Shown one piece after another: positions 7,150-23,971 of a stretch of 35,305 bases of DNA. Every line of letters starts with the position of its first letter. Position 1 is the first letter of the stretch. Origin of the DNA: Hyphomicrobiales bacterium. GTDB taxonomy: Bacteria > Pseudomonadota > Alphaproteobacteria > Rhizobiales > Rhizobiaceae. Location: the NCBI GenBank assembly GCA_900466575.1, contig UBMP01000029.1:1-35305 (forward strand), read 5' to 3'. Position numbers and translations under genes: made by a program. The notes under the pieces are model-generated. The model searched no databases. It was not told the origin of the DNA and saw only the letters and a list, made by a program, of their open reading frames with translations.

Positions 7150-9495
7150 TCAGTGGCCGTGCATCGCCGCCCAGACCTTGGCGGGCGTGGCGGGCATGGT
7201 CAGGTTGTTGTTGCCGATGGCGTCGGTGATGGCGTTGATCACCGCCGGCGGAGAGCCGATGGCGCCGGCCTCGCCGCAGCCCTTGATGCCGAGCGGGTTG
7301 CTCGTGCAGGGCGTGGTCTGGTGCGACACCTTGTAGGACGGCAGGTCGTCGGCGCGCGGCATGGCATAGTCCATGTAGCTCGCCGTCAGCAGCTGGCCGG
7401 TCGAGGCGTCGTATTGCACGCCTTCCAGCAGTGCCTGGCCGATGCCCTGCGCGATGCCGCCATGCACCTGGCCTTCGACGATCATCGGGTTGATGATGTT
7501 GCCGAAATCGTCGGCGGCGACAAACTGGATCAGCTGGGTCTTGCCGGTATCCGGATCGACCTCGACTTCGCAGATGTAGCAGCCGGCGGGGAAGGTGAAG
7601 TTGGCCGGATCGTAGAACGCGCCTTCCTTCAGGCCGGGCTCCATGCCGGCCGGCAGGTTATGCGCGGTATAGGCGGAGAGCGCCACCTGGAACCACGGAA
7701 CCGACTTGTCGGTGCCCGCGACCTTCAGCTCGCCATTCTCGATGACGATGTCGCTTTCGGAGGCTTCCAGCAGGTGCGCGGCGATCTTCTTCGCCTTGAC
7801 CTCGACCTTGTCGAGCGCCTTGGCAATGGCCGACATGCCGACTGCGCCCGAGCGCGATCCGTAGGTGCCCATGCCCATCTGCACCTTGTCCGTGTCGCCA
7901 TGGACGATGGAGATGCTGTCGAGCGGTACGCCGAGGCGGGTGGCGACGAGCTGCGCGAAGGTCGTCTCATGGCCCTGGCCATGGCTGTGCGAGCCGGTGA
8001 GCACTTCGATCGTGCCGACCGCGTTGACGCGCACTTCGGCCGATTCCCAGAGGCCGACGCCGGCACCGAGCGAGCCCACCGCCGCCGACGGCGCGATGCC
8101 GCAGGCTTCGATATAGCAGCTCATGCCGATGCCGCGCTTCTTGCCGCGCCGCTCGGCTTCCGCCTTGCGGGCCGGGAAACCGGCCCAGTCGGCTTCCGCC
8201 ATGGCCGCATCCAGCGAGGCCTGGAAGTTGCCGGTGTCGTAATTCATGATGACCGGTGTCTGGTGCGGGAACTGGCGGATGAAGTTGATCGAGCGCAGCT
8301 CTGCCGGGGAAATTCCCAGTTCGCGGGCCGCCGTTTCCATCGTGCGTTCGAGCAGATAGGTCGCCTCCGGACGGCCGGCGCCGCGATAGGCATCGACCGG
8401 TGCGGTGTTGGTGTAGACCGCATGCACGTTCGCATAGATCGCCGGCAGATTGTACTGGCCGGAGAGCAGCGTCGCATAGAGATAGGTCGGTACGGCGCCC
8501 GAGAAGAGCGACATGTAGGCACCGAAATTGGCGGTCGTGTCGACCTTGAGCGCGGTGACGCGATGGTTCGCGTCGAAGGCCATCTTCACCTTGGAGACAT
8601 GGTCGCGGCCATGCGCGTCGGTGAGGAAGGCTTCCGTCCGGTCGGACGTCCACTTGACCGGAACGCCGGTCTTCTTCGAAGCCCAGAGACAGGTGATTTC
8701 TTCCGGATAGATATAGATCTTCGAGCCGAAACCGCCGCCGACATCGGGGGCGATGACGCGCAGCTTGTTTTCCGGGGCGACATTATAGAAGGCGCTCATC
8801 ACGAGGCGGGCCACATGCGGGTTCTGGCTCGTGGTGTAGCAGGTGTAATGGTCTTCCGCCGTGTCGTAGATGCCGAGTGCTGCGCGCGGCTCCATCGGGT
8901 TCGGTGACAGGCGGTTGTTGTGGATTTCGATTTCGGTGACGTGCGCGGCAGAGGCAAGCGCTGCATCCACCGCACCTTCATCGCCGATATGCCAGTCGTA
9001 AATCTGGTTGCCGGGGGCGTTGGCGTGGATCTGCGGCGCGCCGGGCTTCAGCGCGTCGACGGCCTCGGTGACGGCCGGCAGCACTTCGTAATCCACGACA
9101 ACGGCTTCGGCCGCGTCACGGGCCTCGCCGAGGCTGTCGGCCACCACGATGGCGACGGCGTCGCCGACATAGCGAACCGTTTCATAGGCGAGGGGACGCC
9201 AGTCGCCCATGTTCATCGGCGAACCATCTTTCGAATGGATCATCCAGCCGCAGATCAGGCTGCCGATGCCGTCTTCCTTCATCGCCTTGCCTTCCAGCAC
9301 GTCGATGACGCCCGGCATGTCCTTGGCAGCGGAGACGTCGATGCTCTTGATCTTTGCGTGGGCATGGGGGCTGCGGACAAAGACCGCATATTTCATCCCC
9401 GCCACCTTCATGTCGTCCACATACCGGCCCTTGCCGGTCAGGAAGCGCTTGTCTTCCTTGCGCGCAACGCGTGCGCCAATACCTTCAACACCCAT
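7150..9495 (-). CDS. Molybdenum hydroxylase, large molybdopterin subunit (form II CoxL-like)
   Basis: 781-aa catalytic subunit binding molybdopterin cytosine dinucleotide. Residues 1-140 form the a/b hammerhead domain, followed by the two Mo-cofactor domains. GGGFGSK (253-259) and a C-terminal GEAGAIGSPP segment with the probable catalytic Glu are present. Residues 369-375 read AYRGAGR. True form I CO dehydrogenases have AYRCSFR at this loop, so the cysteine that holds copper is absent. This places the protein in the form II (BMS) group, whose substrates are mostly unknown. A CO dehydrogenase label would be by homology only. GGGAGG precedes the ATG. Middle gene of the operon. Confidence 0.93.
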   Translation of the reverse strand: MGVEGIGARVARKEDKRFLTGKGRYVDDMKVAGMKYAVFVRSPHAHAKIKSIDVSAAKDMPGVIDVLEGKAMKEDGIGSLICGWMIHSKDGSPMNMGDWRPLAYETVRYVGDAVAIVVADSLGEARDAAEAVVVDYEVLPAVTEAVDALKPGAPQIHANAPGNQIYDWHIGDEGAVDAALASAAHVTEIEIHNNRLSPNPMEPRAALGIYDTAEDHYTCYTTSQNPHVARLVMSAFYNVAPENKLRVIAPDVGGGFGSKIYIYPEEITCLWASKKTGVPVKWTSDRTEAFLTDAHGRDHVSKVKMAFDANHRVTALKVDTTANFGAYMSLFSGAVPTYLYATLLSGQYNLPAIYANVHAVYTNTAPVDAYRGAGRPEATYLLERTMETAARELGISPAELRSINFIRQFPHQTPVIMNYDTGNFQASLDAAMAEADWAGFPARKAEAERRGKKRGIGMSCYIEACGIAPSAAVGSLGAGVGLWESAEVRVNAVGTIEVLTGSHSHGQGHETTFAQLVATRLGVPLDSISIVHGDTDKVQMGMGTYGSRSGAVGMSAIAKALDKVEVKAKKIAAHLLEASESDIVIENGELKVAGTDKSVPWFQVALSAYTAHNLPAGMEPGLKEGAFYDPANFTFPAGCYICEVEVDPDTGKTQLIQFVAADDFGNIINPMIVEGQVHGGIAQGIGQALLEGVQYDASTGQLLTASYMDYAMPRADDLPSYKVSHQTTPCTSNPLGIKGCGEAGAIGSPPAVINAITDAIGNNNLTMPATPAKVWAAMHGH

Positions 9496-10686: not shown

Positions 10687-10720
10687 CACCGGCGCGGCAA
10701 AACCGCGCCGGTGTTTTTTT
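10687..10720 (+). terminator. Rho-independent terminator after the lipoprotein gene
   Basis: Perfect 11-bp GC-rich stem (CACCGGCGCGG at 10687-10697 with CCGCGCCGGTG at 10703-10713), CAAAA loop, then seven Ts (10714-10720). It separates the lipoprotein gene from the copper operon. Confidence 0.96.
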
Positions 10721-10723
10721 GTC

Positions 10724-10754
10724 TTGACCTTCCAGTGACTGGAAGGATTAGCCT
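10724..10754 (+). promoter_or_regulatory. CueR/MerR-type promoter and operator of the copper operon
   Basis: A -35 box TTGACC (10724-10729) and a -10 box TAGCCT (10749-10754) are separated by 19 bp, longer than the normal 17. The spacer region carries the palindrome CCTTCCAGT-G-ACTGGAAGG (10728-10746). This is the standard architecture of promoters twisted into activity by MerR-family proteins, and the palindrome closely resembles known CueR boxes. The cognate CueR is the second gene of the operon. Confidence 0.95.
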
Positions 10755-10781
10755 TGCTGAAATTCCTCAGGAGGGCTCGAG

Positions 10782-13118
10782 ATGAGCATGAATTCCGAAA
10801 CGCTGCCGGCTGAAGGCGCGCCGGTCCCCACGGCCATCGATCCCGTCTGCGGGATGACGGTGAAGCTCAACGCCGGCAAACCGAAGCTAGTCTACAAGGG
10901 GACGGAATATCACTTCTGCAATCCCAAGTGCCTGACGCGCTTTGATGCGGACCCTTATTTCTATCTCTCCGGCAATTCCAAAAGGCGGAAGAAGGCCGCC
11001 CCCAAGGTGGCGCGCTATACCTGCCCCATGGACCCGGAGATCGTTCAGGACGGACCGGGCACCTGCCCGATCTGCGGCATGGCGCTGGAGCCGATGGACG
11101 GGCAGGCGGACGGGCCGAATCCCGAACTCGTCGATTTCACGCGCCGCTTCTGGGTCAGCGTCGCCGCTGCCGTTCCGCTTCTTGTTCTCTCGATGGGGCC
11201 AATGCTGGGCCTGCCGATCCGGGAGTGGATCGGCGAGCGCGTTTCGGTCTTTCTCGAAATGATCTTGGCGGCACCCGTCGTTCTCTGGGCGGCGCAGCCG
11301 TTCTTTCATCGTGGCTGGGTGTCGGTGAAGACCTGGCATCTCAACATGTGGACGCTGATCATGCTGGGTGTCTCGGCGGCCTTCGGCTATAGCGTCGTGG
11401 CGGCGTTCCTCCCCGGCATATTCCCGCATGATATCGCTGGCCATGGCGGCGGCGTGCCGGTCTATTTCGAGGCGTCGGTGGTCATCATCGCGCTCGTCTT
11501 TCTCGGTCAAATTTTGGAACTCAGGGCGCGCGAGAAGACGGGCGACGCGCTGAAGGCCCTGGTCAATCTTGCGCCGAAAAAGGCGCTGCGGCTGAATGCC
11601 GACGGTTCGGAATATGAGGTGCCGCTGGAGAATATCCTGGTCGGCGACCGTATCCGCGTGCGCCCCGGCGAAAGTGTTGCGGTTGACGGGCAGGTGGCGG
11701 AAGGCCGCTCGTCGGTGGACGAGAGCATGATCACGGGCGAGTCGATCCCGGTCGAGAAGAACCCCGGCGATGCCGTCACCGGAGGGACGATCAACGGTAA
11801 TGGCGGGCTGATCATCGAGGCGACCAAGGTCGGTGACGACACGATGCTGGCGCAGATCGTCAAGATGGTCTCCAGCGCCCAGCGGTCGCGCGCGCCGATC
11901 CAGAGCCTCGCGGACAGGGTGGCCGGCTGGTTCGTGCCGGCGGTCGTGGCCGTTGCGGTTCTGTCGTTCATCGCGTGGCTGGTCTTCGCGCCGGAGCAAT
12001 CCTTCATCTACGCGATCGTAGCCGCCGTTTCCGTGCTGATGATCGCCTGCCCCTGCGCGCTGGGGCTCGCGACGCCCGTCTCGGTGATTGCCGCAACGGG
12101 GCGCGGCGCGCAGGCCGGCGTGCTGATCCGCAATGCGGCGGCACTGGAACGGCTGGCGGCGGCCGATACGCTGCTCATCGACAAGACCGGAACGATCACG
12201 GAAGGCAAGCCGGTTCTCTCGGGCGTGACGGCTTTCGAAGGTTTCTCCGAGGATGATGTCCTGTCGCTGGCCGCTTCGCTGGAGAAGGGTTCCGGCCATC
12301 CGTTGGCCGCCGCGATCCTGAAGGGTGCGGAGGACAAGGGGCTGGCCCTTCGCGACGTCACCGATTTCGACTCCGTCTCGGGCAAAGGCGTGATGGGCGT
12401 GATCGGCGGGCGGAAGGTGGCACTCGGCAATGCCAAGATGATGCGTCATGTCGGGGTTGAGGATGCGGGCTTTGGAAACCAGGCCGAGATGCTGGCGCGG
12501 GACGGTGCAACCGTGATGTATCTTGCCGCCGACGGCAAGCCGGCGGGGCTGATCGCGGCGGCTGACCCCGTCAAGACCACAGCGAAGGAGGCTGTTGCGG
12601 CACTCAAGGCGGCGGGCCTGCGCGTCATCATGGCGACGGGCGACCAGGAAGCGGCCGCGCGGGTGGTTGCCGCGCGCGTGGGTATCGACGATTTCCGCGC
12701 GGGTCTTCTGCCGGAGGGCAAGAAGGCGCTGGTGGACGGGCTTCAGGCTGAAGGTCGTTCAGTCGCCATGGCGGGCGATGGCGTCAACGACGCGCCGGCT
12801 CTGGCGGCGGCCGACACCGGCATTGCCATGGGCACAGGTGCGGATGTGGCGATCGAAAGCGCCGGCATCACGCTGGTGAAGGGCGATCTGCAAGGTGTGG
12901 TCAAGGCCCGGCATCTCGCCGCCGCGACGATCCGCAATATCAAGCAAAATCTGTTCTTCGCGTTTATATATAACGTGGTTGGCGTGCCGATTGCGGCGGG
13001 CGTGCTTTATCCGATCACCGGATCCATGCTCTCGCCCATGCTGGCGGCGGCCGCGATGAGCCTCTCATCCGTCTCGGTGATCTCCAATGCACTGCGGCTG
13101 CGGCGGCTCAAGCTTTGA
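10782..13118 (+). CDS. copA: Copper-exporting P1B-type ATPase with YHS and heavy-metal-binding N-terminus
   Basis: 778-aa inner-membrane ATPase that expels Cu(I). The N-terminus carries a YHS domain (about 19-64; PVCGM with C23, then C46 and C50) and a heavy-metal-binding segment (about 79-105; YTCPMDPEI...CPICGM) in place of the usual CxxC HMA domains. The transport core is complete: TGES actuator motif, membrane CPC (C423-P-C425) in [12 protein letters not shown], phosphorylated Asp467 in DKTGT, the SGHPLA nucleotide motif, and [17 protein letters not shown] precedes the start; ATG codons at 10782 and 10788 are both usable. It is driven by the CueR-type promoter upstream and followed after 9 bp by cueR. 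The gene symbol could equally be actP, a rhizobial name. Confidence 0.94.
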
Positions 13119-13127
13119 AAGGAGCGC

Positions 13128-13544
13128 ATGATGAATATCGGTGAAGCCTCGGAACGCTCCGGCCTGCCGGCGAAGACGATCCGCTATTACGAGGATATTT
13201 CGCTTGTCGCCCCCGACAGGGCCGACAACGGCTATCGCGATTACAGCGCGAGCGATGTGCATCGCCTGCGTTTCCTGCATCGCGCGCGCAATCTCGGTTT
13301 TTCCATTGATGAATGCCGGTTGCTCTTGTCGCTTTATTCCGATCGCAACCGGGCGAGCAGCGACGTGAAGGCGATGGCCGAGCAGAAGCTTAGCGAGATC
13401 GACGCCAAGATTGCCGAGCTGCAATCGCTCAAATCCGCCCTGCAGCCGCTGGTCGACTGCTGCCATGGCGATGACAGGCCGGATTGCCCCATTCTCGACG
13501 ATCTTGCCGGCCATGGCGGGCGCCGGGCACAAGTGCTGGCGTGA
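13128..13544 (+). CDS. cueR: MerR-family copper efflux regulator CueR
   Basis: 138-aa Cu(I)-sensing activator. The winged helix-turn-helix is at residues 2-40 (MNIGEASERSGLPAKTIRYYE), followed by a long dimerisation helix. The metal loop C112-HGDDRPD-C120 has the two cysteines at the same spacing as in CueR, and the neighbouring C111 gives a CC pair. Translation may start at 13128 or at the adjacent in-frame ATG at 13131; GGAG is just upstream. It is cotranscribed with copA and should act on the 19-bp-spacer promoter at 10724-10754, giving autoregulation of the operon. Confidence 0.93.
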   Translation: MMNIGEASERSGLPAKTIRYYEDISLVAPDRADNGYRDYSASDVHRLRFLHRARNLGFSIDECRLLLSLYSDRNRASSDVKAMAEQKLSEIDAKIAELQSLKSALQPLVDCCHGDDRPDCPILDDLAGHGGRRAQVLA

Positions 13545-13595
13545 CGAGGCCGGATCGCGGTGCTATAGCGCTCTGCGAAGAAGGGCGGGCATGGC

Positions 13596-14765
13596 ATGCG
13601 CAACATAACGGTTCTGGGGTCGACAGGGTCGATCGGCGTCTCGACGCTGGATGTGGTCGGGCAATTGGGTGGACGCGGCGCGTTCGAAGTGCTGGCGCTG
13701 ACCGGCAATGGCAATATCCCGCTGCTCGCCGAACAGGCGATCGCCTCGGGCGCAAAGCTTGCCGTCACTGCTAGCGAAGAGCTTTATTCTGAACTCAAAT
13801 CTGCGCTGGCCGGTACCGGCATTGCGGTCGCCGCCGGCAAGTCTGGCCTCATCGAGGCCGCCGAGATGGAGGCGAGCCTTGTCATGGCCGCCATCGTCGG
13901 AACCGCCGGTCTTGCGCCGACGCTTGCCGCAGCCCGGCGCGGCGCCGATATCGCACTCGCCAACAAGGAATGCCTCGTCTCCGCCGGCACGCTCTTTATC
14001 GAGGCGGTCGAGAAGGGCGGCGGCAAACTGCTGCCGGTCGACAGCGAACACAATGCCATCTTCCAAGTGCTCGAAGAAAACCAGCGCCACGCGCTGGAGC
14101 GCATCGTGCTCACCGCCTCCGGCGGGCCGTTCCGCACATGGACGCGCGAGCAGATGGCGGGCGTCACCGCCGCAGTCGCGCGCGTGCATCCCAACTGGTC
14201 GATGGGCCTGAAGATTTCTGTCGGCAGCGCCTCGATGTTCAACAAGGCGCTGGAGATGATCGAGGCGAAGCATCTCTTCCGCGTCGCGCCCGAGCAGATC
14301 GAAGTCATCGTCCACCCGCAAAGCGTCATCCATTCCATGGTCGGCTACACCGACGGCTCCGTGCTCGCCCAGCTCGGCTGCCCGGACATGCGCACGGCCA
14401 TCGGTTATGCGCTCGCATACCCCGCGCGCCCCGCGCTCAATGTCGAACGCCTCGACTTCGCCAAGCTCGCCCGTCTCGACTTTGAAGCCCCCGACGAAAT
14501 CCGCTTTCCCGCCCTGCGCCTCGCCCGCCTCGCCATGACCCGCGGCGGCCAGCAAAGCGCCATCATGAACGCCGCGGAAGAAACCGCCTTCGATGCCTTT
14601 GTGGAGGAGAAGATCGGGTTCCTGGAGATGGCCGATGTCGTCGAGGCGGTCATGGAGGAGATGACCGGCTGGGGCGCTGCAGCGACGGTCGAGGATGTGT
14701 TTGCTTGTGATGCGGAAGCGAGGGTAAGGGCCGGGGAATGGGTGAGGGGGAAGCGGGCGGCTTGA
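13596..14765 (+). CDS. dxr: 1-deoxy-D-xylulose 5-phosphate reductoisomerase
   Basis: 389-aa enzyme of the MEP isoprenoid pathway that turns DXP into 2-C-methyl-D-erythritol 4-phosphate using NADPH. Visible signatures are GSTGSIG (residues 8-14, NADPH), NKECLVSAG, the metal-binding PVDSEHNAIFQ, the active-site loop ASGGPFR, and HPNWSMG-K. The length is normal for the family. It is not next to uppS, cdsA or rseP here; it stands between the copper operon and the AT-rich patch. The ATG at 13596 has only a weak ribosome site (GAAGGGCGGG). Confidence 0.95.
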   Translation: MRNITVLGSTGSIGVSTLDVVGQLGGRGAFEVLALTGNGNIPLLAEQAIASGAKLAVTASEELYSELKSALAGTGIAVAAGKSGLIEAAEMEASLVMAAIVGTAGLAPTLAAARRGADIALANKECLVSAGTLFIEAVEKGGGKLLPVDSEHNAIFQVLEENQRHALERIVLTASGGPFRTWTREQMAGVTAAVARVHPNWSMGLKISVGSASMFNKALEMIEAKHLFRVAPEQIEVIVHPQSVIHSMVGYTDGSVLAQLGCPDMRTAIGYALAYPARPALNVERLDFAKLARLDFEAPDEIRFPALRLARLAMTRGGQQSAIMNAAEETAFDAFVEEKIGFLEMADVVEAVMEEMTGWGAAATVEDVFACDAEARVRAGEWVRGKRAA

Positions 14766-15093
14766 GGGGGGCAGTCAAGTTTAGCCGTGTTTTGGCCCAC
14801 GCAACCCACCCGGTTTGTGACCGCTTCGCGCCGTCATTTCAGTCACAAGTTCCAAGCTAATGTCATCCCGAAAGCGGTGGTGACCTCAGGAAGCTTCCTA
14901 ATGGCCAACCCTCCGCTCCATTGACTGAGCAACCACGACATTGAAACTTGCAGTACGCCAAGTTGCCGCAAATGAGAAAGCTTTCAAAGGCCTTCTTCAG
15001 GTAACACCGACAACACGCCTGTCGCTTGCTGAGGCACAAAATTTCGTCTTAAACTTGAATCTTTACAGTGGCTGACGATTCGTAGTGTGAGAT
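14766..15093. other. Non-coding or remnant stretch between dxr and the orphan ATPase gene
   Basis: This 328-bp stretch holds no complete recognised gene. Base composition falls from the high GC of dxr to clearly more AT from about 14840 onward, matching the gene that follows. The only feature I can point to is the short open frame at 14941-15075, listed separately. No terminator hairpin, tRNA remnant or insertion-sequence end is visible, and I see no direct repeat pair marking an insertion. Confidence 0.5.
14941..15075 (+). CDS. Possible 44-aa ORF or 3' remnant upstream of the orphan ATPase gene
   Basis: An open frame from TTG at 14941 to TGA at 15073-15075 encodes 44 residues (KLAVRQVAANEKAFKGLL..., ending NLNLYSG). 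It ends 18 bp before the ATPase gene and has the same AT-rich composition. No clear ribosome site precedes the TTG. It may be the end of a deleted partner gene, a small leader ORF, or chance; the frame is open from just after an in-frame TGA about 12 bases upstream. I do not recognise the protein. Confidence 0.2.
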   Translation: MKLAVRQVAANEKAFKGLLQVTPTTRLSLAEAQNFVLNLNLYSG

Positions 15094-16827
15094 ATGACGA
15101 TCTCCAAGATTCACATTGAAAATATTCGTGGTTTTGAAAAGGTGAGTTTAACGGTTAATCTTCGCCCAAATTGCACTAACATCCTTGTTGCCCCGAATGG
15201 CTTTGGCAAGAGCAGCATATCTACGGCTTTCAACTGCGCTAGAGGCAGCAAGCTCAACGTTGACGAAAAAGACAAGTACAAGAAAAAAGATGCGGCGGTA
15301 TCACGCCTTTCCATTGATTACGACGATAAGACCCTACATGCGAACTCAGACCTGAATGAAATATCGGGCGAGTTCGATATTCATGTAATTAAGTCGAACA
15401 TTGAGCCAAAAGCTAAACTTCCTAAAATAAATGGCTTCACAGTTGCGAAGCCGTATCTGGAGATTCCGTCGCTTGACCTTGGGCCAGCGTTTGATAAAGA
15501 AAAAATAAATTTTGACATAAATAGTTACAAGCCGTTGTTTGGGGAAAACTCAAAAGTTGTCCCTAATCTATCTACCCGGTGCGACGACGAGATTCTCAGA
15601 AGCGAATTACTTGGCGTGATTGCCTCTATCGATAAGCTTAAGCAAAAAAAATCGTCTGACTTGTTCGAAGAAATGATTGAGGCGGTAAAGGGTCTAGGCG
15701 GATCAAAAGCATCAATTAGCGACAAGGTCGCAGCCCAATACGCTCAGAAAGTCGATGAACTGCCGCATCTCAAGGCCGTCTTTGATGTGGTGATGAAGCA
15801 TGGGCAAGGGAACACCTGGCTTGATAGCGTGATCATATGCTACATACTAATGGACTTGTGCGCATCCGACAGGCCAAACCTGAAGAAATGGTTGCAGTAC
15901 GCCGTTTATTCCCGGCGCCTGAAATCTTTGAAAGATTTCATCGGAGACATCAATGGAGCTTGGGTAACTGCTGAAATAAAAGAAACCAAAGGTCGCGTCC
16001 TAGTCACTTTCCCCGACGCCTCATCGCTCTCAAATGGGCAGCGCGATCTTCTGTACTTCGGTTGCAATTTGCTACGGACGCGCGAGACAAATAGCACGAA
16101 ACCCTGCATCCTGTTGATCGATGAAGTCTTCGATTATCTTGATGACGCGAACATCGTTGTTGCTCAATATTTTATGAGCAAGTTAATCGACACGTATCGA
16201 GAAGAGGGTAGGCAGATTTACATTTGTCTACTAACCCACTTAGACCCCGTGTATTTCAAAGGCTACGCGCTTAAGCGCCAGCAGACCGTATACCTTGGAG
16301 ACACCACGCAGAAAATTAGTGAAACTATGCGGAAGGTCATCGCGCACCGAGACGATGCATGTTGGGCGGCAGACCTGTCTCGACACTTCCTTCATTATCA
16401 CCCCGATGACTGTGATATCTCGGAGACATTCAACTCCACATACGGACTGCCGAAGAAACACGGCAAAAGTCACGGCTTCTACGAGTTTTTGAAAGAAGAA
16501 TGGGACAAGTGTGTTGCTGGTGGCGGAAGCTACGATCCTTTCGCAGTTTGTGCCTATGTCCGAGTGCAGATCGAGCGATGCGCTTACTCTAAAATCCAGA
16601 CTCAGCCGGAGCGAGAGAAGTTTCTGCTAGAGTGTAATGGCACTGCAAACAAACTGGAGTATGCCGAGTCTATAGGTATTCTCGTCCCGGAAGCATGCCT
16701 TCTGCTGGGAGTGGTATACAACGATGCCCTGCATCGAAAGGGCGCTATCGATCAGTCTTCTACCATCGCTCTTAAACTGAGAAATTTAGGGCTTCAGAGT
16801 ATGATGAAGCAAGCGATCAACTGGTAG
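15094..16827 (+). CDS. Orphan ABC/SMC-like AAA ATPase of unknown function, possible defence gene
   Basis: 577-aa P-loop ATPase of the RecF/SMC/OLD-like group (AAA_15/AAA_23 type). IxIxNIRGFE at the N-terminus is typical of the group. Walker A is APNGFGKSS (33-41), with A33 replacing the usual first Gly. The ABC signature is SLSNGQRD (311-318), Walker B is ILLIDEVFD (339-347, with D343-E344), and a switch His lies in LLTHLDP (H382). Between Walker A and the signature there are only about 270 residues and no long coiled coil. Residues about 420-577 form a separate helical domain that I cannot assign. Codon use is AT-richer than all neighbours, suggesting transfer. Similar single ATPases occur in phage-defence systems, but no nuclease or partner is seen here. 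After the TAG stop the frame stays open for 32 codons. Confidence 0.8.
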   Translation: MTISKIHIENIRGFEKVSLTVNLRPNCTNILVAPNGFGKSSISTAFNCARGSKLNVDEKDKYKKKDAAVSRLSIDYDDKTLHANSDLNEISGEFDIHVIKSNIEPKAKLPKINGFTVAKPYLEIPSLDLGPAFDKEKINFDINSYKPLFGENSKVVPNLSTRCDDEILRSELLGVIASIDKLKQKKSSDLFEEMIEAVKGLGGSKASISDKVAAQYAQKVDELPHLKAVFDVVMKHGQGNTWLDSVIICYILMDLCASDRPNLKKWLQYAVYSRRLKSLKDFIGDINGAWVTAEIKETKGRVLVTFPDASSLSNGQRDLLYFGCNLLRTRETNSTKPCILLIDEVFDYLDDANIVVAQYFMSKLIDTYREEGRQIYICLLTHLDPVYFKGYALKRQQTVYLGDTTQKISETMRKVIAHRDDACWAADLSRHFLHYHPDDCDISETFNSTYGLPKKHGKSHGFYEFLKEEWDKCVAGGGSYDPFAVCAYVRVQIERCAYSKIQTQPEREKFLLECNGTANKLEYAESIGILVPEACLLLGVVYNDALHRKGAIDQSSTIALKLRNLGLQSMMKQAINW

Positions 16828-16953
16828 CTGGTGCTGGACAACGATGATCCAGACAGCGCTCTACAGCCTATTGACGAAATCAGCTTAGCTGTTCTCGGCT
16901 CCTGCGGCATGCAAACTCAAAGTTGACCTTCCATTGTCGCCCCTTCTCTGAAG

Positions 16954-16993
16954 CCACCTGTCCTCTGATGTGGCTCTCCCAGGTGGGGTTTTT
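16954..16993 (+). terminator. Possible terminator of the orphan ATPase gene
   Basis: A 7-bp stem (CCACCTG at 16954-16960 with CAGGTGG at 16980-16986) with a 19-base loop is followed by GGTTTTT. The stem is short and the loop long, so support is moderate. It lies about 130 bp after the ATPase stop and directly before the hydrolase gene fragment. Confidence 0.45.
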
Positions 16994-16996
16994 CCC

Positions 16997-17211
16997 TCAC
17001 ACCCCGTAAACCGCCCTTCTCAAATTGTCCGGAAACGCCCCCATGCACCCCTCCAGCGCGGTATTGCTGAGCGACACCATCGTCACCCCCGCTGCCCGGT
17101 CCACCAGCCAGGTATTGCCGTAAACCCCGCCCATTGCACCGCGCCCTTGGCCATGGTGCTGAGCACTGTGCTTTGGTCCTCGCAGACGGCGCCGAAGGAG
17201 CTGAAGCGCGT
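16997..17211 (-). pseudogene. Degenerate 3' fragment of a serine hydrolase gene
   Basis: This stretch repeats the last ~215 bp of the intact serine hydrolase gene at 17937-19055, in the same orientation and 940 bp away. A 39-bp block (17021-17059 and 17961-17999) is identical; the rest differs mainly at silent positions. The last about 46 residues (GGVYGNTWLVDRAAG... to VYGV-stop) are preserved. A one-base deletion near 17130 then breaks the frame, and similarity stops near 17211. There is no start or catalytic region. The silent differences suggest a copy from a related lineage, or an old duplication, rather than a recent tandem event. Confidence 0.85.
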
Positions 17212-17319
17212 TCCGTTTCACAGCGAAAGGGAATTGACCTACCGCCCCTGGAACACGACAATCCACCGCGCGTTAAACCGCCGCCTCTAACTCCCTTCCA
17301 AACCCGAAAGTCCCCCACA

Positions 17320-17883
17320 TTGCTTGAAACCCTCATCGCCAAATACGGCCTTCTGGCCGTCCTGATCGGTTCCGGGATCGAGGGGGAGACGGTGGTGTTT
17401 CTGGGCGGGGTTTCGGCGCATCGGCATCTTCTGCCGTTCTGGGGCGTGGCGGCTGCGGCGGCGCTGGGGTCGTTTATCGCCGACCAGATCTTCTTTTTCC
17501 TCGGGCGCCGGGCCAGCGGGTCGGCGTGGGTGCGGAAGTGGACATCCCATCCTGTCGCCGCAAAGGGGAAGGCCTTGCTGGAGCGCTATCCGACCGGGTT
17601 CATTCTTGCCTTCCGGTTCATCTATGGCATGCGAAATATCAGTCCGGTCATCATCGGGTTGTCTGCCGTTCGTGCCCGCAAGTTCGTGATGCTGAATGCG
17701 CTCGCGGCGCTCGTCTGGGGCCTTGTCATTTCGGCTGCCGGATATCTCTTCAGCAACGCGATCGAGTCCGTGCTTGGTCGCATGCATCTGCATATCCACC
17801 TGATCATCGGTCTGGTGTTTGCCGTTGCCTTTGGCGGTGTCCTATGGATCTGGAGCCGTTGGAGGCTTGCGAAGGACCCGTGA
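17320..17883 (+). CDS. DedA-family (SNARE-associated/VTT) membrane protein
   Basis: 187-aa inner-membrane protein of the DedA family, members of which are proposed lipid scramblases or proton-dependent transporters. The conserved GSGIEGE near the N-terminus with an acidic residue, the FRFIYGMRN motif (family F-R-F/I-x-G-x-R) and several hydrophobic segments are visible. I chose TTG at 17320 because family members begin near here (M/L-LETLIAKYGLLAV). The same frame is open from 17134, but that part is antisense to the hydrolase fragment and is proline- and charge-rich, unlike a DedA N-terminus. The ribosome site is weak (GAAAG). The gene is wedged between the two copies of the hydrolase 3' end. 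Confidence 0.82.
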   Translation: MLETLIAKYGLLAVLIGSGIEGETVVFLGGVSAHRHLLPFWGVAAAAALGSFIADQIFFFLGRRASGSAWVRKWTSHPVAAKGKALLERYPTGFILAFRFIYGMRNISPVIIGLSAVRARKFVMLNALAALVWGLVISAAGYLFSNAIESVLGRMHLHIHLIIGLVFAVAFGGVLWIWSRWRLAKDP

Positions 17884-17936
17884 CGATTCGCCATCGTCCG
17901 ACGCGCGCCGCACGACCGGCTGAGCAGGCTTGTCCG

Positions 17937-19055
17937 TCAAACCCCGTATAGAGCGCGACGCAAATTGTCCGGAAACGCCCCCATGCACCCCTCCAGCGCC
18001 GTGTTGCTAAGCGACACCATCGTAATACCGGCTGCCCGGTCTACCAGCCAGGTATTGCCATAGACCCCGCCCCATTGCACCGCGCCCTTGGCCATGGTGG
18101 CAAGCGCGATGCTCGGGTCTTCGCAGACGGCGCCGAAGAAGCCGAAGCGCATGCCGGGTTCGCAGGTGATGGTGCCGACCTGGTTTGCGAAGCCGGCTTC
18201 CGCGAGGCTCGGGCTCATGACCTTGCCGCCGCCGCGAGCCAGCGTATCGAGGAGGGTCATGACGTCGCCGGCCGTACCTGCCATGCCGGCGCCGCCGGAC
18301 TGGAAGGCTTTCGGGTTGAAGATGCGGTTGGGCGAGAAGCCGGCGGTCCAGCCGGATTCGCGGGGCGGGTAGTAGGGGCTTGGCATGCGGATCGCGCCCT
18401 TTGCGCCATCGGCATAGGCGGCAGCGAGGCGGTCGGGGTCGGTGACGTGGAAGCGGCTGTCCTTGAGGCCAAGCGGGCCGGTCACATAGTGGTTCACCGC
18501 CTCTTCGAGCGTGCCGCCATGGACGCGGGCGATCAGCGCGCCGAGAATGTCCAGCGCCACCGAATAGGCCCAGGCGGTGCCGGGCTCGTAGTCGAGCGGG
18601 ATGTCGTTCAGCGGGCGGAAATTTGTCTCTGCGTCATTGTCCGTGTCGAGGATGCCGATGGTCACGCGCTTGCCGGCCTCGAGCTGTTCGAGCGCCGGAT
18701 TGTAGGAGAGGCCGGCCGTGTGGGTCAGCAGGTGGCGGATGGTGATCTTCGCCTGCTCGCCGCTCGGGCTCTTGGGGTTAAACCAGGGCAGATGGGTGAC
18801 GGCGAGGTCATCGAGGCCGAGCTTGCCCTTGTCGATCATCGCGAGCGTTGCGGCCGCCACAAAGGGCTTGGTGACGGAGGCGAAGCGGAAGATGGTGTCG
18901 TCGCGCGTGCGCTTCTCCGCCTCGCGGTCCGCATAGCCTGCGGCGCGCCGGTAGATTTCCTTGCCGTTCTTGCGGACGATGACGACGCATCCGACGATGC
19001 TCTTGCGGGCGACGGCGGTGTCGATGACGCGATCAAGGCGGTCCTGCATGGACAT
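17937..19055 (-). CDS. Class C beta-lactamase-fold serine hydrolase
   Basis: 372-aa protein of the beta-lactamase / EstB esterase family. The nucleophile motif is S60-V-T-K63 in FASVTKPF. The tyrosine motif is Y164-S-V. A C-terminal WGG (QWGGVYGN) stands where beta-lactamases have KTG, as in EstB-type esterases. No signal peptide is visible, so it is probably cytoplasmic and more likely an esterase or peptidase than a resistance enzyme. ATGs at 19055 and 19049 are both possible. Its last ~215 bp recur as the broken fragment at 16997-17211. Confidence 0.88.
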   Translation of the reverse strand: MSMQDRLDRVIDTAVARKSIVGCVVIVRKNGKEIYRRAAGYADREAEKRTRDDTIFRFASVTKPFVAAATLAMIDKGKLGLDDLAVTHLPWFNPKSPSGEQAKITIRHLLTHTAGLSYNPALEQLEAGKRVTIGILDTDNDAETNFRPLNDIPLDYEPGTAWAYSVALDILGALIARVHGGTLEEAVNHYVTGPLGLKDSRFHVTDPDRLAAAYADGAKGAIRMPSPYYPPRESGWTAGFSPNRIFNPKAFQSGGAGMAGTAGDVMTLLDTLARGGGKVMSPSLAEAGFANQVGTITCEPGMRFGFFGAVCEDPSIALATMAKGAVQWGGVYGNTWLVDRAAGITMVSLSNTALEGCMGAFPDNLRRALYGV

Positions 19056-22039: not shown

Positions 22040-22231
22040 ACTGGCACTCTCAATACTAAAGCTGCCGGAAGAAGCCAAGACCTTTCTCCTGCTTCGGCAG
22101 TGTGCGGAAAGGTTCCGTTGGCCGGTTGAATACCGCTGATTTGGTTAATCATTCCGAAATACGGGCCTGCGATAGTGCAAGTGGCTGAAAAGCCGGATTT
22201 GTATCTCGTTGAACGGCAAATGTAGGTCTGT

Positions 22232-23971
22232 TTGGTCAAGCTTCCGAAGAAGGTGGTCATCATCGCGTCCGGTGTGGTCGTCCTCACCGGGGCTTCCGGC
22301 GCGACCGCTTTCTTCATCGGCAAGGACAAGATTCTCGGACCCTCGGCGAAGGAACTCGGCGGTGTGGAATGCACCGACGTGATCCGTGTTGCGGACATGC
22401 GCAAGGATCGGGGGCCGTGGCTGCGCAAATTCGTGCGCGTGCCGCCCGGCACGGATGGCATGACGCGCGTCAAGACGGCGCTGCGCGTGGCCAAGAAGGT
22501 GCAGGAAACGCTGCCTGCCGATCTCATTGAAATCGCCGTGCTTGACCAATCCGGCCCGGACAAGCGTGCCCAGATGCGCGGCCGCGCGATCGGCGCCGAG
22601 GTCATTCTCGTCAAGGACGCAGCCAAGGTCCCCGGCATCACGGCGCCATACACGATCCAGTATTATCAGGGTGGGGCCAGCGGCACCGGCATGTTCTATG
22701 GCGAAGAGGCCACGCTGACTTCGGACGAAGCTGAAGAGCTTCTGTCGAAGATGAAGGACCTGAACGATTGCGCCCCGCCGCCCGGCAAGGAAGAGGCCGG
22801 CGACAAGAAGGGCGAGAAGAAGAAAGAGAAGAAGCCAGAGAAAAAACCGGAAAAGAAGGACAAGAAGAAGGAAGGCGAAGGCCACGAGGCAGGCGCCAAG
22901 GAAGGCGAAGGCGCGAAACCGGAAGAGGCCAAGAAGGAAGAACCGAAGAAGGAAGAAAAGCCCGAAGTCGTGTTCCCCAACGACGTGTTCGGCAAGATGC
23001 AGAAGGCGGCTTTCGACAAGGCCGAAGAGGCTGCCGCTGCCGAAGAAGAGGCGAAGAAGGAAGAAGAGGCCAAAAAGCCCGGCATGTTTGGCAAGGTGCT
23101 GGGCATGGTGGGTCTTGGCAGCAAGGATGAAGCGGAAGGCGAACATGGCGCTGCGGAAGAGGGCGGCGAACACGCGGCCCCTGCCGAAGAAGGTGGCGGC
23201 GAGCATGCCGCGCCGGCGGAAGCGGACGGTGCAGAACATGGAACCGAGGCCGCGAAACCTGCCGCCGGGCATGAGGCCAAGGACGCGCCGAAGAGCGACG
23301 CCAAGCCAACCTCCCACCATGAGAGCAAATCCGAAAGCGGCAAACCGGAAAAGGCCAATCCCGAAGCGGCCAAACATGATGGCGGCAAGCCCGAGACGTC
23401 TGCCAAGGAGACTGCGGCCGAGCCGGGAGAGAAGGGCGGCGGCTTCATGTCGAAGATGCTCGGCATGGTCGGCCTCGGCAAGGAAAAGCCGAAGGATACG
23501 ATCGAGCATTCCGGCGGTCCCGCCATCTTCAGCGGCAAGAGCGTGAAGAAGGACGAGACCGGCAAGGCACCGGCGGGCGAGCAGCCGGCGCATGGCGAAG
23601 AGAAGACATCCGACCATAGCGAGGCGCCGGCCCCTGCCGAACACGGCGCGGAGCCTGCAGGCGAGGAACATTCAGCCCCTGCGGAGCACGGCGCTGCCGG
23701 GGAACCCGCTGCGACGGCCCCGGACGCAACCGCCGACAAGCCCGAGCCAAAAGCGGAGCATGGCGCTGCCGCCGATCATGGCGCGGAGGCGCGCCCCGTC
23801 GATGCCGCACCGGCTCATGACAAGCCTGCAGCCCATGAGGCCTCCGCCCATAACGATCCGGTTCTGGAGGCTGTGAATGCAGCAGACCACAAGCCGGCTG
23901 AGGCAGACGCCGAGCATCCCGCTGCTGAGCCGAAGAAGGACGACAATGCGTCTGCGGCGCACGGGGGCTAA
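22232..23971 (+). CDS. Membrane-anchored protein with long charged low-complexity tail, function unknown
   Basis: 579 aa. A short basic start and one hydrophobic segment (about residues 7-29) anchor it in the membrane. Residues about 45-187 form a folded domain of unknown function (ECTDVIRVADMRKDRGPW...). The rest is low complexity: a Lys/Glu-rich run (about 190-250) and an Ala-Glu-His-Gly-Pro-rich tail with many AEHG units. LGMVGLG occurs twice (residues 290-296 and 410-416) inside similar hydrophobic modules starting PGMFGK and GGFMSK, so part of the tail seems duplicated. The start is TTG at 22232, with AGG about 12 bases before it; a GTG at 22253 is an alternative. Long open frames on the opposite strand here are compositional. 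The tail may span the periplasm, which is an inference. Confidence 0.8.
   Translation: MVKLPKKVVIIASGVVVLTGASGATAFFIGKDKILGPSAKELGGVECTDVIRVADMRKDRGPWLRKFVRVPPGTDGMTRVKTALRVAKKVQETLPADLIEIAVLDQSGPDKRAQMRGRAIGAEVILVKDAAKVPGITAPYTIQYYQGGASGTGMFYGEEATLTSDEAEELLSKMKDLNDCAPPPGKEEAGDKKGEKKKEKKPEKKPEKKDKKKEGEGHEAGAKEGEGAKPEEAKKEEPKKEEKPEVVFPNDVFGKMQKAAFDKAEEAAAAEEEAKKEEEAKKPGMFGKVLGMVGLGSKDEAEGEHGAAEEGGEHAAPAEEGGGEHAAPAEADGAEHGTEAAKPAAGHEAKDAPKSDAKPTSHHESKSESGKPEKANPEAAKHDGGKPETSAKETAAEPGEKGGGFMSKMLGMVGLGKEKPKDTIEHSGGPAIFSGKSVKKDETGKAPAGEQPAHGEEKTSDHSEAPAPAEHGAEPAGEEHSAPAEHGAAGEPAATAPDATADKPEPKAEHGAAADHGAEARPVDAAPAHDKPAAHEASAHNDPVLEAVNAADHKPAEADAEHPAAEPKKDDNASAAHGG

Follow-up and report, generated by a model that had tools for sequence, protein, structure and literature searches.

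PrrC joins an ATP-binding cassette (ABC) ATPase head to a C-terminal nuclease and is encoded in a type I restriction-modification (R-M) locus, where the R-M complex keeps it inactive until phage inhibition of restriction sets it free, as stated in the accessible portions of PMC3710099 and PMC12707154. For RloC, the available part of PMC2610378 gives the motif Arg-X3-Glu-X36-52-His, likens it to Arg320-Glu324-His356 of PrrC and reports that mutating any one residue of the triad destroyed RloC activity; DNA breaks are reported as the signal for RloC in the available text of PMC12707154, and PMC3710099, in the part available, assigns both proteins to HEPN. Here we describe an ATPase gene at positions 15094-16827, plus strand, of contig UBMP01000029.1 from a Hyphomicrobiales bacterium of the Rhizobiaceae (assembly GCA_900466575.1), of which positions 1 to 35,305 were analysed in full and are called the window. 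This gene is likely a defence gene, and we consider it evenly balanced whether it is, more specifically, a horizontally moving PrrC-like gene in which the ABC head would gate a C-terminal RNase. Among open-licence papers we recognised none that describes this ATPase family, and the accession or locus names of four members were not found in them.

The gene is an intact open reading frame (ORF) of 577 amino acids with an ATG start and its sole stop at the end, and its profile matches, structure matches and conservation mark the product as an ATPase of the ABC/Rad50 type, ending in a C-terminal domain some 150-160 residues long. It carries a Walker A motif, APNGFGKS (residues 33-40, 15190-15213), an ABC signature, LSNGQ (residues 312-316, 16027-16041), a Walker B motif with D-loop, ILLIDEVFDYLD (residues 339-350, 16108-16143), and a switch histidine, H382 (16237-16239), all on the plus strand. 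We aligned 15 full-length members, namely the window protein and those of loci L002-L008, L010-L013 and L032-L034, the distant ones being 27-32% identical to the window protein. Throughout this alignment G38, K39, S313, G315, D343, E344, D350 and H382 are the same residue (15/15), and S40 is kept in 14. Left out were matches confined to the N-terminus (L014, L016-L018, L022-L029, L035-L038) and L021, a strong match over 59 residues in a frame of 61 amino acids; scans of viral contigs contributed L010-L013 as new members and several repeats (the contig of L005 came up again as L009 and L031, that of L010 as L030, that of L012 as L053 and that of L013 as L054). Thus, the ABC/SMC-type ATPase gene that a preliminary description had proposed from the letters is real, with all four of its motifs present and conserved, and so is the AT-rich island around it: the gene has a G+C content of 46.5% versus 65.2% in dxr and 62.5% in the window outside 14771-17250. 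The absence of a partner gene was also borne out, since between dxr and 16827 neither strand holds a further ORF of at least 80 amino acids except those overlapping dxr. Scans for sigma-70 promoters and terminators at the locus did no better than on shuffled sequence.

One explanation that would fit the weak SMC_N and RecF matches is an ordinary DNA-repair ATPase of the RecF/Rad50/SMC kind that is accessory by chance; yet all of these matches lie under their curated cut-offs (SMC_N 29.2 bits against 40, AAA_23 26.7 against 27, AAA_15 25.8 against 32.1, RecF 31.3 against 172), the gene is absent from close relatives and associated with R-M genes elsewhere, and it comes with neither a long coiled coil nor a nuclease subunit, so that we regard this explanation as very improbable. 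The PADLOC scan returned 55 families at E≤1, and among the best 25 of these the top matches were AriA, mad3 and PtuA, with E-values of about 2e-7 to 4e-7 and mostly over the N-terminus. A search of BFVD gave eight matches at E≤0.001, of which the named ones are ABC/SMC-type proteins. We also built an AlphaFold2 (AF2) model from nine sequences (predicted local distance difference test score (pLDDT) 78.7, predicted TM-score (pTM) 0.67), in which a helical lobe spans residues ~146-286 and the longest helix covers 45 residues (242-286). As had been claimed at the outset, the protein as modelled is therefore an ATPase without the extended coiled coil that marks SMC and Rad50 proteins. In a Foldseek search against the PDB, the closest among the best 50 of 317 matches are chains of retron PtuA, Rad50 and AriA (E 1.9e-6 to 1e-4).

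PtuA, of Septu and retron Ec78/Eco7, and AriA, of PARIS, thus share a Rad50-like ABC head with the window protein and are among its closest solved structures (best 50 of 317) and best PADLOC matches (best 25 of 55). PtuA acts with PtuB, and AriA with AriB. In contrast, neither PtuB nor AriB nor a reverse transcriptase is a common partner in the family described here, and the C-terminal domain of the window protein is unmatched to theirs; as for Septu, no PtuB HNH nuclease adjoins the gene, the island in the window holds no second gene, and no neighbour is common to the relatives. OLD and GajA (Gabija) also have an N-terminal ABC head, and an OLD/AriA-like ATPase occupies the same chromosomal site in a congener, but Pfam scans did not find their TOPRIM domain in the window protein. 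The protein differs from LmuB/SMC of Lamassu by having neither a long coiled coil, as judged from the model, nor partner genes at the window locus.

What sets the protein apart is its C-terminal domain, approximately residues 425-577 (16366-16824, plus strand), which lies outside known families and is a putative RNase. In profile scans no known domain was found past the ATPase head, in line with the earlier statement that this part is unassigned and holds no recognised nuclease: ten of the 15 members were scanned at E≤10 without a credible Pfam or PADLOC match to the C-terminal domain, and the few matches listed there were unrelated as well as weak, with E-values of 0.03 and above. Nevertheless, three residues in it are the same in all 15 full-length homologues. 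R490 and E494 form an R-x3-E element (16561-16575, plus strand) of the type given in the available part of PMC2610378, and H547 ends the sequence YNDALH (residues 542-547, 16717-16734, plus strand), with a spacing of E-x50..52-H across the family. R-x3-E-x50..52-H is the sole invariant set of that form anywhere in the protein, and an invariant R/E/H arrangement arose in 0.0017 of column permutations over residues 410-577, a figure that is post hoc. Because R, E and H are invariant, the sequence suggests catalysis more than binding for this domain. In the AF2 model the tail is all-helical, with R490 and E494 sharing helix 482-501 and H547 directly following helix 533-546; folded by itself from a single sequence, the C-terminal domain gave a pLDDT of 42.7 and an unusable model.

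Close to the triad, N543 sits at position -4 from H547, as does the N of the RloC-like NDGSH, and is retained in 14 of the 15 homologues, the remaining one having D; the residue ahead of H547 is L or M in the family where RloC has S. Among AAA_13 frames, R-x3-E...SH occurs in the tail of 13 of 19 (13 of 20 counting the fragment L065), and of the 13 RloC-like tails with the triad, nine have N at -4 from H. A local hhalign comparison with RloC-like tails brings R, E, N, D and H into register, although at a score that is not significant. The preliminary description had seen a hint of a HEPN-type RNase in two R-x4/5-H matches, R413/H418 and R430/H436, which it considered weak. This suspicion survives, whereas the residues on which it was based do not: R413 is kept in 9, H418 in 5 and R430 in 8 of the 15 homologues (H436 in 14), and the conserved set R490/E494/H547 recalls PrrC and RloC instead. 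Nor is there in the family a HEPN Rx4-6H motif, since no invariant R stands 5-7 residues ahead of an invariant H; five positions upstream of H547 the members have Y or F.

Compared with PrrC, the window protein has the same compact ABC ATPase head and C-terminal R-x3-E...H triad, and at L033 and L034 the gene lies within a type I R-M operon near hsdS. It differs in length (577 amino acids against 372 positions in the PADLOC PrrC model), in its E-to-H spacing (50-52 in the family against 31 in PrrC by the residue numbers in the accessible text of PMC2610378) and in that most alphaproteobacterial copies have no adjacent R-M gene, L004 and L007 being the exceptions. With RloC it shares the ABC head and the R-x3-E-x36..52-H motif, but it lacks a zinc-hook coiled coil according to the model, has no AAA_13 match, is shorter (577 amino acids, whereas the 13 RloC-like frames that bear the triad have 722-793) and shows no significant profile similarity. 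On profile grounds, membership of either PrrC or RloC fails and a working likeness remains; the family is missing from the Pfam and PADLOC libraries used.

We looked at the neighbourhoods of the 15 loci, with flanks of unequal length and with L003 and L032 judged from ORF translations and not from profiles. A methyltransferase or restriction gene lies near seven of them, and the count rises to eight with an array of five TIR-domain genes (10691-14203) near the copy on the Sinorhizobium plasmid L006. L033 has the order hsdR-hsdM-hsdS-ATPase-DRT UG5 nitrilase, and L034 the order hsdM...hsdS, a PD-Lambda-5_A-like gene, ATPase, hsdR; the available part of PMC9519451 presents PD-Lambda-5 as the compacted form, found in prophages, of a system that combines R-M with Abi. 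At L011 a type III mod-res pair and two ORFs without assignment precede the ATPase gene. L013 reads GmrSD-PglZ-BrxL-Mrr-ATPase with a 4-bp overlap, its PglZ match being barely above the cut-off, and L007 reads C5 methyltransferase, an 89-amino-acid ORF (7735-8004; no Pfam match at E≤0.001) and ATPase, the last two overlapping by 4 bp. A type III Res gene and an annotated methyltransferase start about 3 kb downstream at L008, and L004 has a D12 methyltransferase and a DndB-like gene nearby. As a rough yardstick and not a matched control, a sample of 100 genomes gave 103 hsdS domain matches, spread over 45 of the genomes, from which our own arithmetic expects a random 16-kb stretch to contain hsdS in ~0.5% of cases versus the 2 of 15 loci observed. 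The defence reading of the preliminary description thus gains support, the gene being patchy and mobile and 8 of the 15 loci having R-M, PglZ/BrxL or TIR neighbours. Its further proposal of a single-gene system holds for the alphaproteobacterial copies and not for several distant members, which lie within multi-gene R-M loci, and the family is for that reason better viewed as an R-M-associated accessory effector.

Several observations weigh against a PrrC-like RNase. The triad motif was sought once the conserved residues were known, and the spacing of 52 is the limit of the published range. In the hhalign comparison with nine RloC-like C-termini, 53 of 300 column shuffles scored equally high, so the similarity is not significant, even though the nine, taken from 11 AAA_13 loci with the shortened L059 and L065 excluded, were all triad-bearing and hence a favourable choice; a global alignment of the C-terminal domain with RloC-like tails is meaningless. 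The PADLOC PrrC model PDLC02360 has three matches in the genome at E≤10, none of them at the ATPase locus, PrrC is not among the best 25 of the 55 PADLOC families for the ATPase, and AAA_13 is not among its Pfam matches at E≤1. As to structure, the Foldseek TM-scores by query are 0.20-0.27 among the best 50 of 317 matches, with the ABC head matched, and are uninformative on the tail, while the block around H547 has a mean pLDDT of 56 in the AF2 model. Finally, in the flanks covered, no R-M, PglZ/BrxL or TIR gene was seen near 7 of the 15 loci, the window locus included and L003 and L032 being judged from ORF translations, and an hsdS match is absent from the window's own genome. The step from the conserved triad to an RNase is the weakest of the PrrC-like reading.

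The same observations can be read with the defence role kept and the RNase given up, so that the C-terminal domain would bind DNA or a partner, for instance an R-M complex, while the ATPase would recruit a DNA-acting effector or be one itself, in the manner of PtuA with PtuB or AriA with AriB. The identity of the best structural matches (retron/Septu PtuA, Rad50, AriA) and of the best PADLOC matches (AriA, mad3, PtuA, mostly N-terminal) argues for this, as does the lack of a significant profile link to RloC C-termini. On the other hand, a conserved partner gene was not seen among the 15 loci, whose neighbours vary, and catalysis would be favoured over binding by the invariance of R, E and H. 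We judge this alternative possible, if somewhat unlikely.

If the PrrC-like reading is correct, the compact Rad50-type ABC head would detect a sign of infection, and its nucleotide cycle would restrain or free the C-terminal RNase with R490, E494 and H547. The freed RNase, by analogy most likely acting on tRNA, would halt translation and so abort the infection. Members within R-M loci would probably serve as a second line once restriction is disturbed, and the alphaproteobacterial copies, being lone cassettes of 2.1 kb, would have to sense their trigger directly, perhaps as DNA breaks in the manner of RloC, or act in trans. Should the triad be that of a nuclease, the family would represent a third, uncatalogued branch of the PrrC/RloC-type restriction guardians, with a tail unrecognised by the Pfam and PADLOC libraries used, and its minimal one-gene form would lend itself to asking which signal the ABC head responds to when no R-M complex is present.

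The mobility of the gene is evident from its distribution. A homologue is absent from all 60 other relatives (5 congeners among them), the own genome alone matching of 61, which rules out the core-gene hypothesis; neither a syntenic core gene nor a housekeeping C-terminal domain, the two outcomes that the preliminary description had named as contrary to its view, was found in these relatives and in the domain scans. Genomes with a match numbered 5 of 385 in a sample of the class, 13 of 398 in the phylum and 5 of 397 in the order, and full-length matches 2, 3 and 1, respectively, with the own genome included each time. Nonetheless, protein copies 84-93% identical occur, other orders included, in Paracoccus, Mesorhizobium and Acetobacter, on a viral contig of IMG/VR and on the Sinorhizobium plasmid accessoryA, and a copy with 75% protein identity on an Agrobacterium plasmid. 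The family extends over at least two phyla, with members in Pseudomonadota as well as Bacillota; the phage and E. coli collections gave no match to the ATPase. Thus, we conclude that the ATPase gene is accessory, patchy and horizontally moved.

DNA comparison with unrelated loci revealed that the gene travels in a shared unit of about 2.1 kb, whose outermost blastn limits, dependent on the partner compared, are 14821-16943 (plus strand). The unit comprises a conserved 5' flank without a convincing ORF (14821-15093), the gene, and a conserved 3' flank (16828-16943). In ten pairs among the window, L002, L003, L005 and L006 the similarity spans from 194-273 bp 5' of the start to 95-123 bp past the stop, and the Acetobacter copy L004 is shorter, its similarity extending no more than 135 bp ahead of the gene and ending 53-63 bp after it. 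Beyond the unit the alphaproteobacterial copies have no DNA similarity, as compared over L002-L004 whole and window positions 13001-19000, and over 1.2 kb on each side. The ratio of nonsynonymous to synonymous substitutions (dN/dS, by NG86) between the window and each of five copies is 0.079-0.143, a low value indicating purifying selection on the protein through transfers between hosts. The 3' flank is 83-91% identical over ~100 bp (four comparisons) versus 61-81% at third codon positions (five comparisons), and the 5' flank is conserved about as well as third codon positions. A coding-sequence remnant was rejected for the 5' flank on account of frame-breaking indels between copies; an RNA element in the 3' flank, with 31 predicted pairs, one two-sided change and a positive covariation term, is unsupported, and Rfam at gathering scores yielded a single tRNA in the window and nothing else. 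Visual inspection of the aligned ends revealed no terminal inverted repeats, and no repeat pair links the ends of the unit.

A bounded unit at unrelated sites, with a conserved 3' flank and, according to annotation or Pfam, an integrase or resolvase gene near five of the 15 loci (L002, L005, L007, L008, L012), would also be expected of a selfish or maintenance element that spreads itself or stabilises plasmids and islands, its ATPase aiding mobility or being an addiction toxin. However, distant members lie inside R-M operons, library profile scans of the ATPase protein revealed neither a transposase nor a recombinase domain, and a shared antitoxin-like neighbour was not seen among the loci; we hold such an element to be distinctly unlikely. 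A more far-reaching version of the defence reading is that of a new R-M-linked family in which an ATPase gates an RNase and which would be separate from both PrrC and RloC; one of its branches would have departed from its R-M hosts to become a transposase-less single-gene cassette crossing the Alphaproteobacteria via its own conserved ends and guarding in trans; we put this forward tentatively and, taken as a whole, consider it rather doubtful.

In the window the unit occupies a variable interval between dxr and dedA (14771-17250), which we compared with stretches L047, L048, L051 and L052 of congeners, two of which hold other single genes there. In genome G001 this is a lone protein of 605 amino acids (L047:1438-3255, minus strand) with a weak HATPase match of 26.6 bits against a cut-off of 26.4 and nothing in PADLOC at E≤0.001, which makes a separate candidate for a defence gene, and in G004 a 671-amino-acid OLD/AriA-like ATPase. 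G002 has sequence of ~48-50% G+C interrupted by contig ends, and in G003 and G005 the gene order differs. Three of the six genomes thus have one ATPase-type gene in the interval, never the same one, and the dxr-dedA site is a small hotspot exchanging lone ATPase-type genes in the genus.

The hydrolase fragment noticed downstream of the insert is real as well: about 230 bp at 16987-17215 (minus strand) duplicate the 3' end of a neighbouring hydrolase gene with a beta-lactamase fold (17937-19055), in blocks 86% and 84% identical to it. The fetched stretches of G001, G002, G004 and G005 have a single hydrolase copy, and the duplicate beside the insert may be a trace of gene exchange. Elsewhere in the window, positions 22501-23500 show a strong skew of A over T (0.49); they fall inside a long ORF, 22145-23671, for which Pfam gave no match at E≤0.001.
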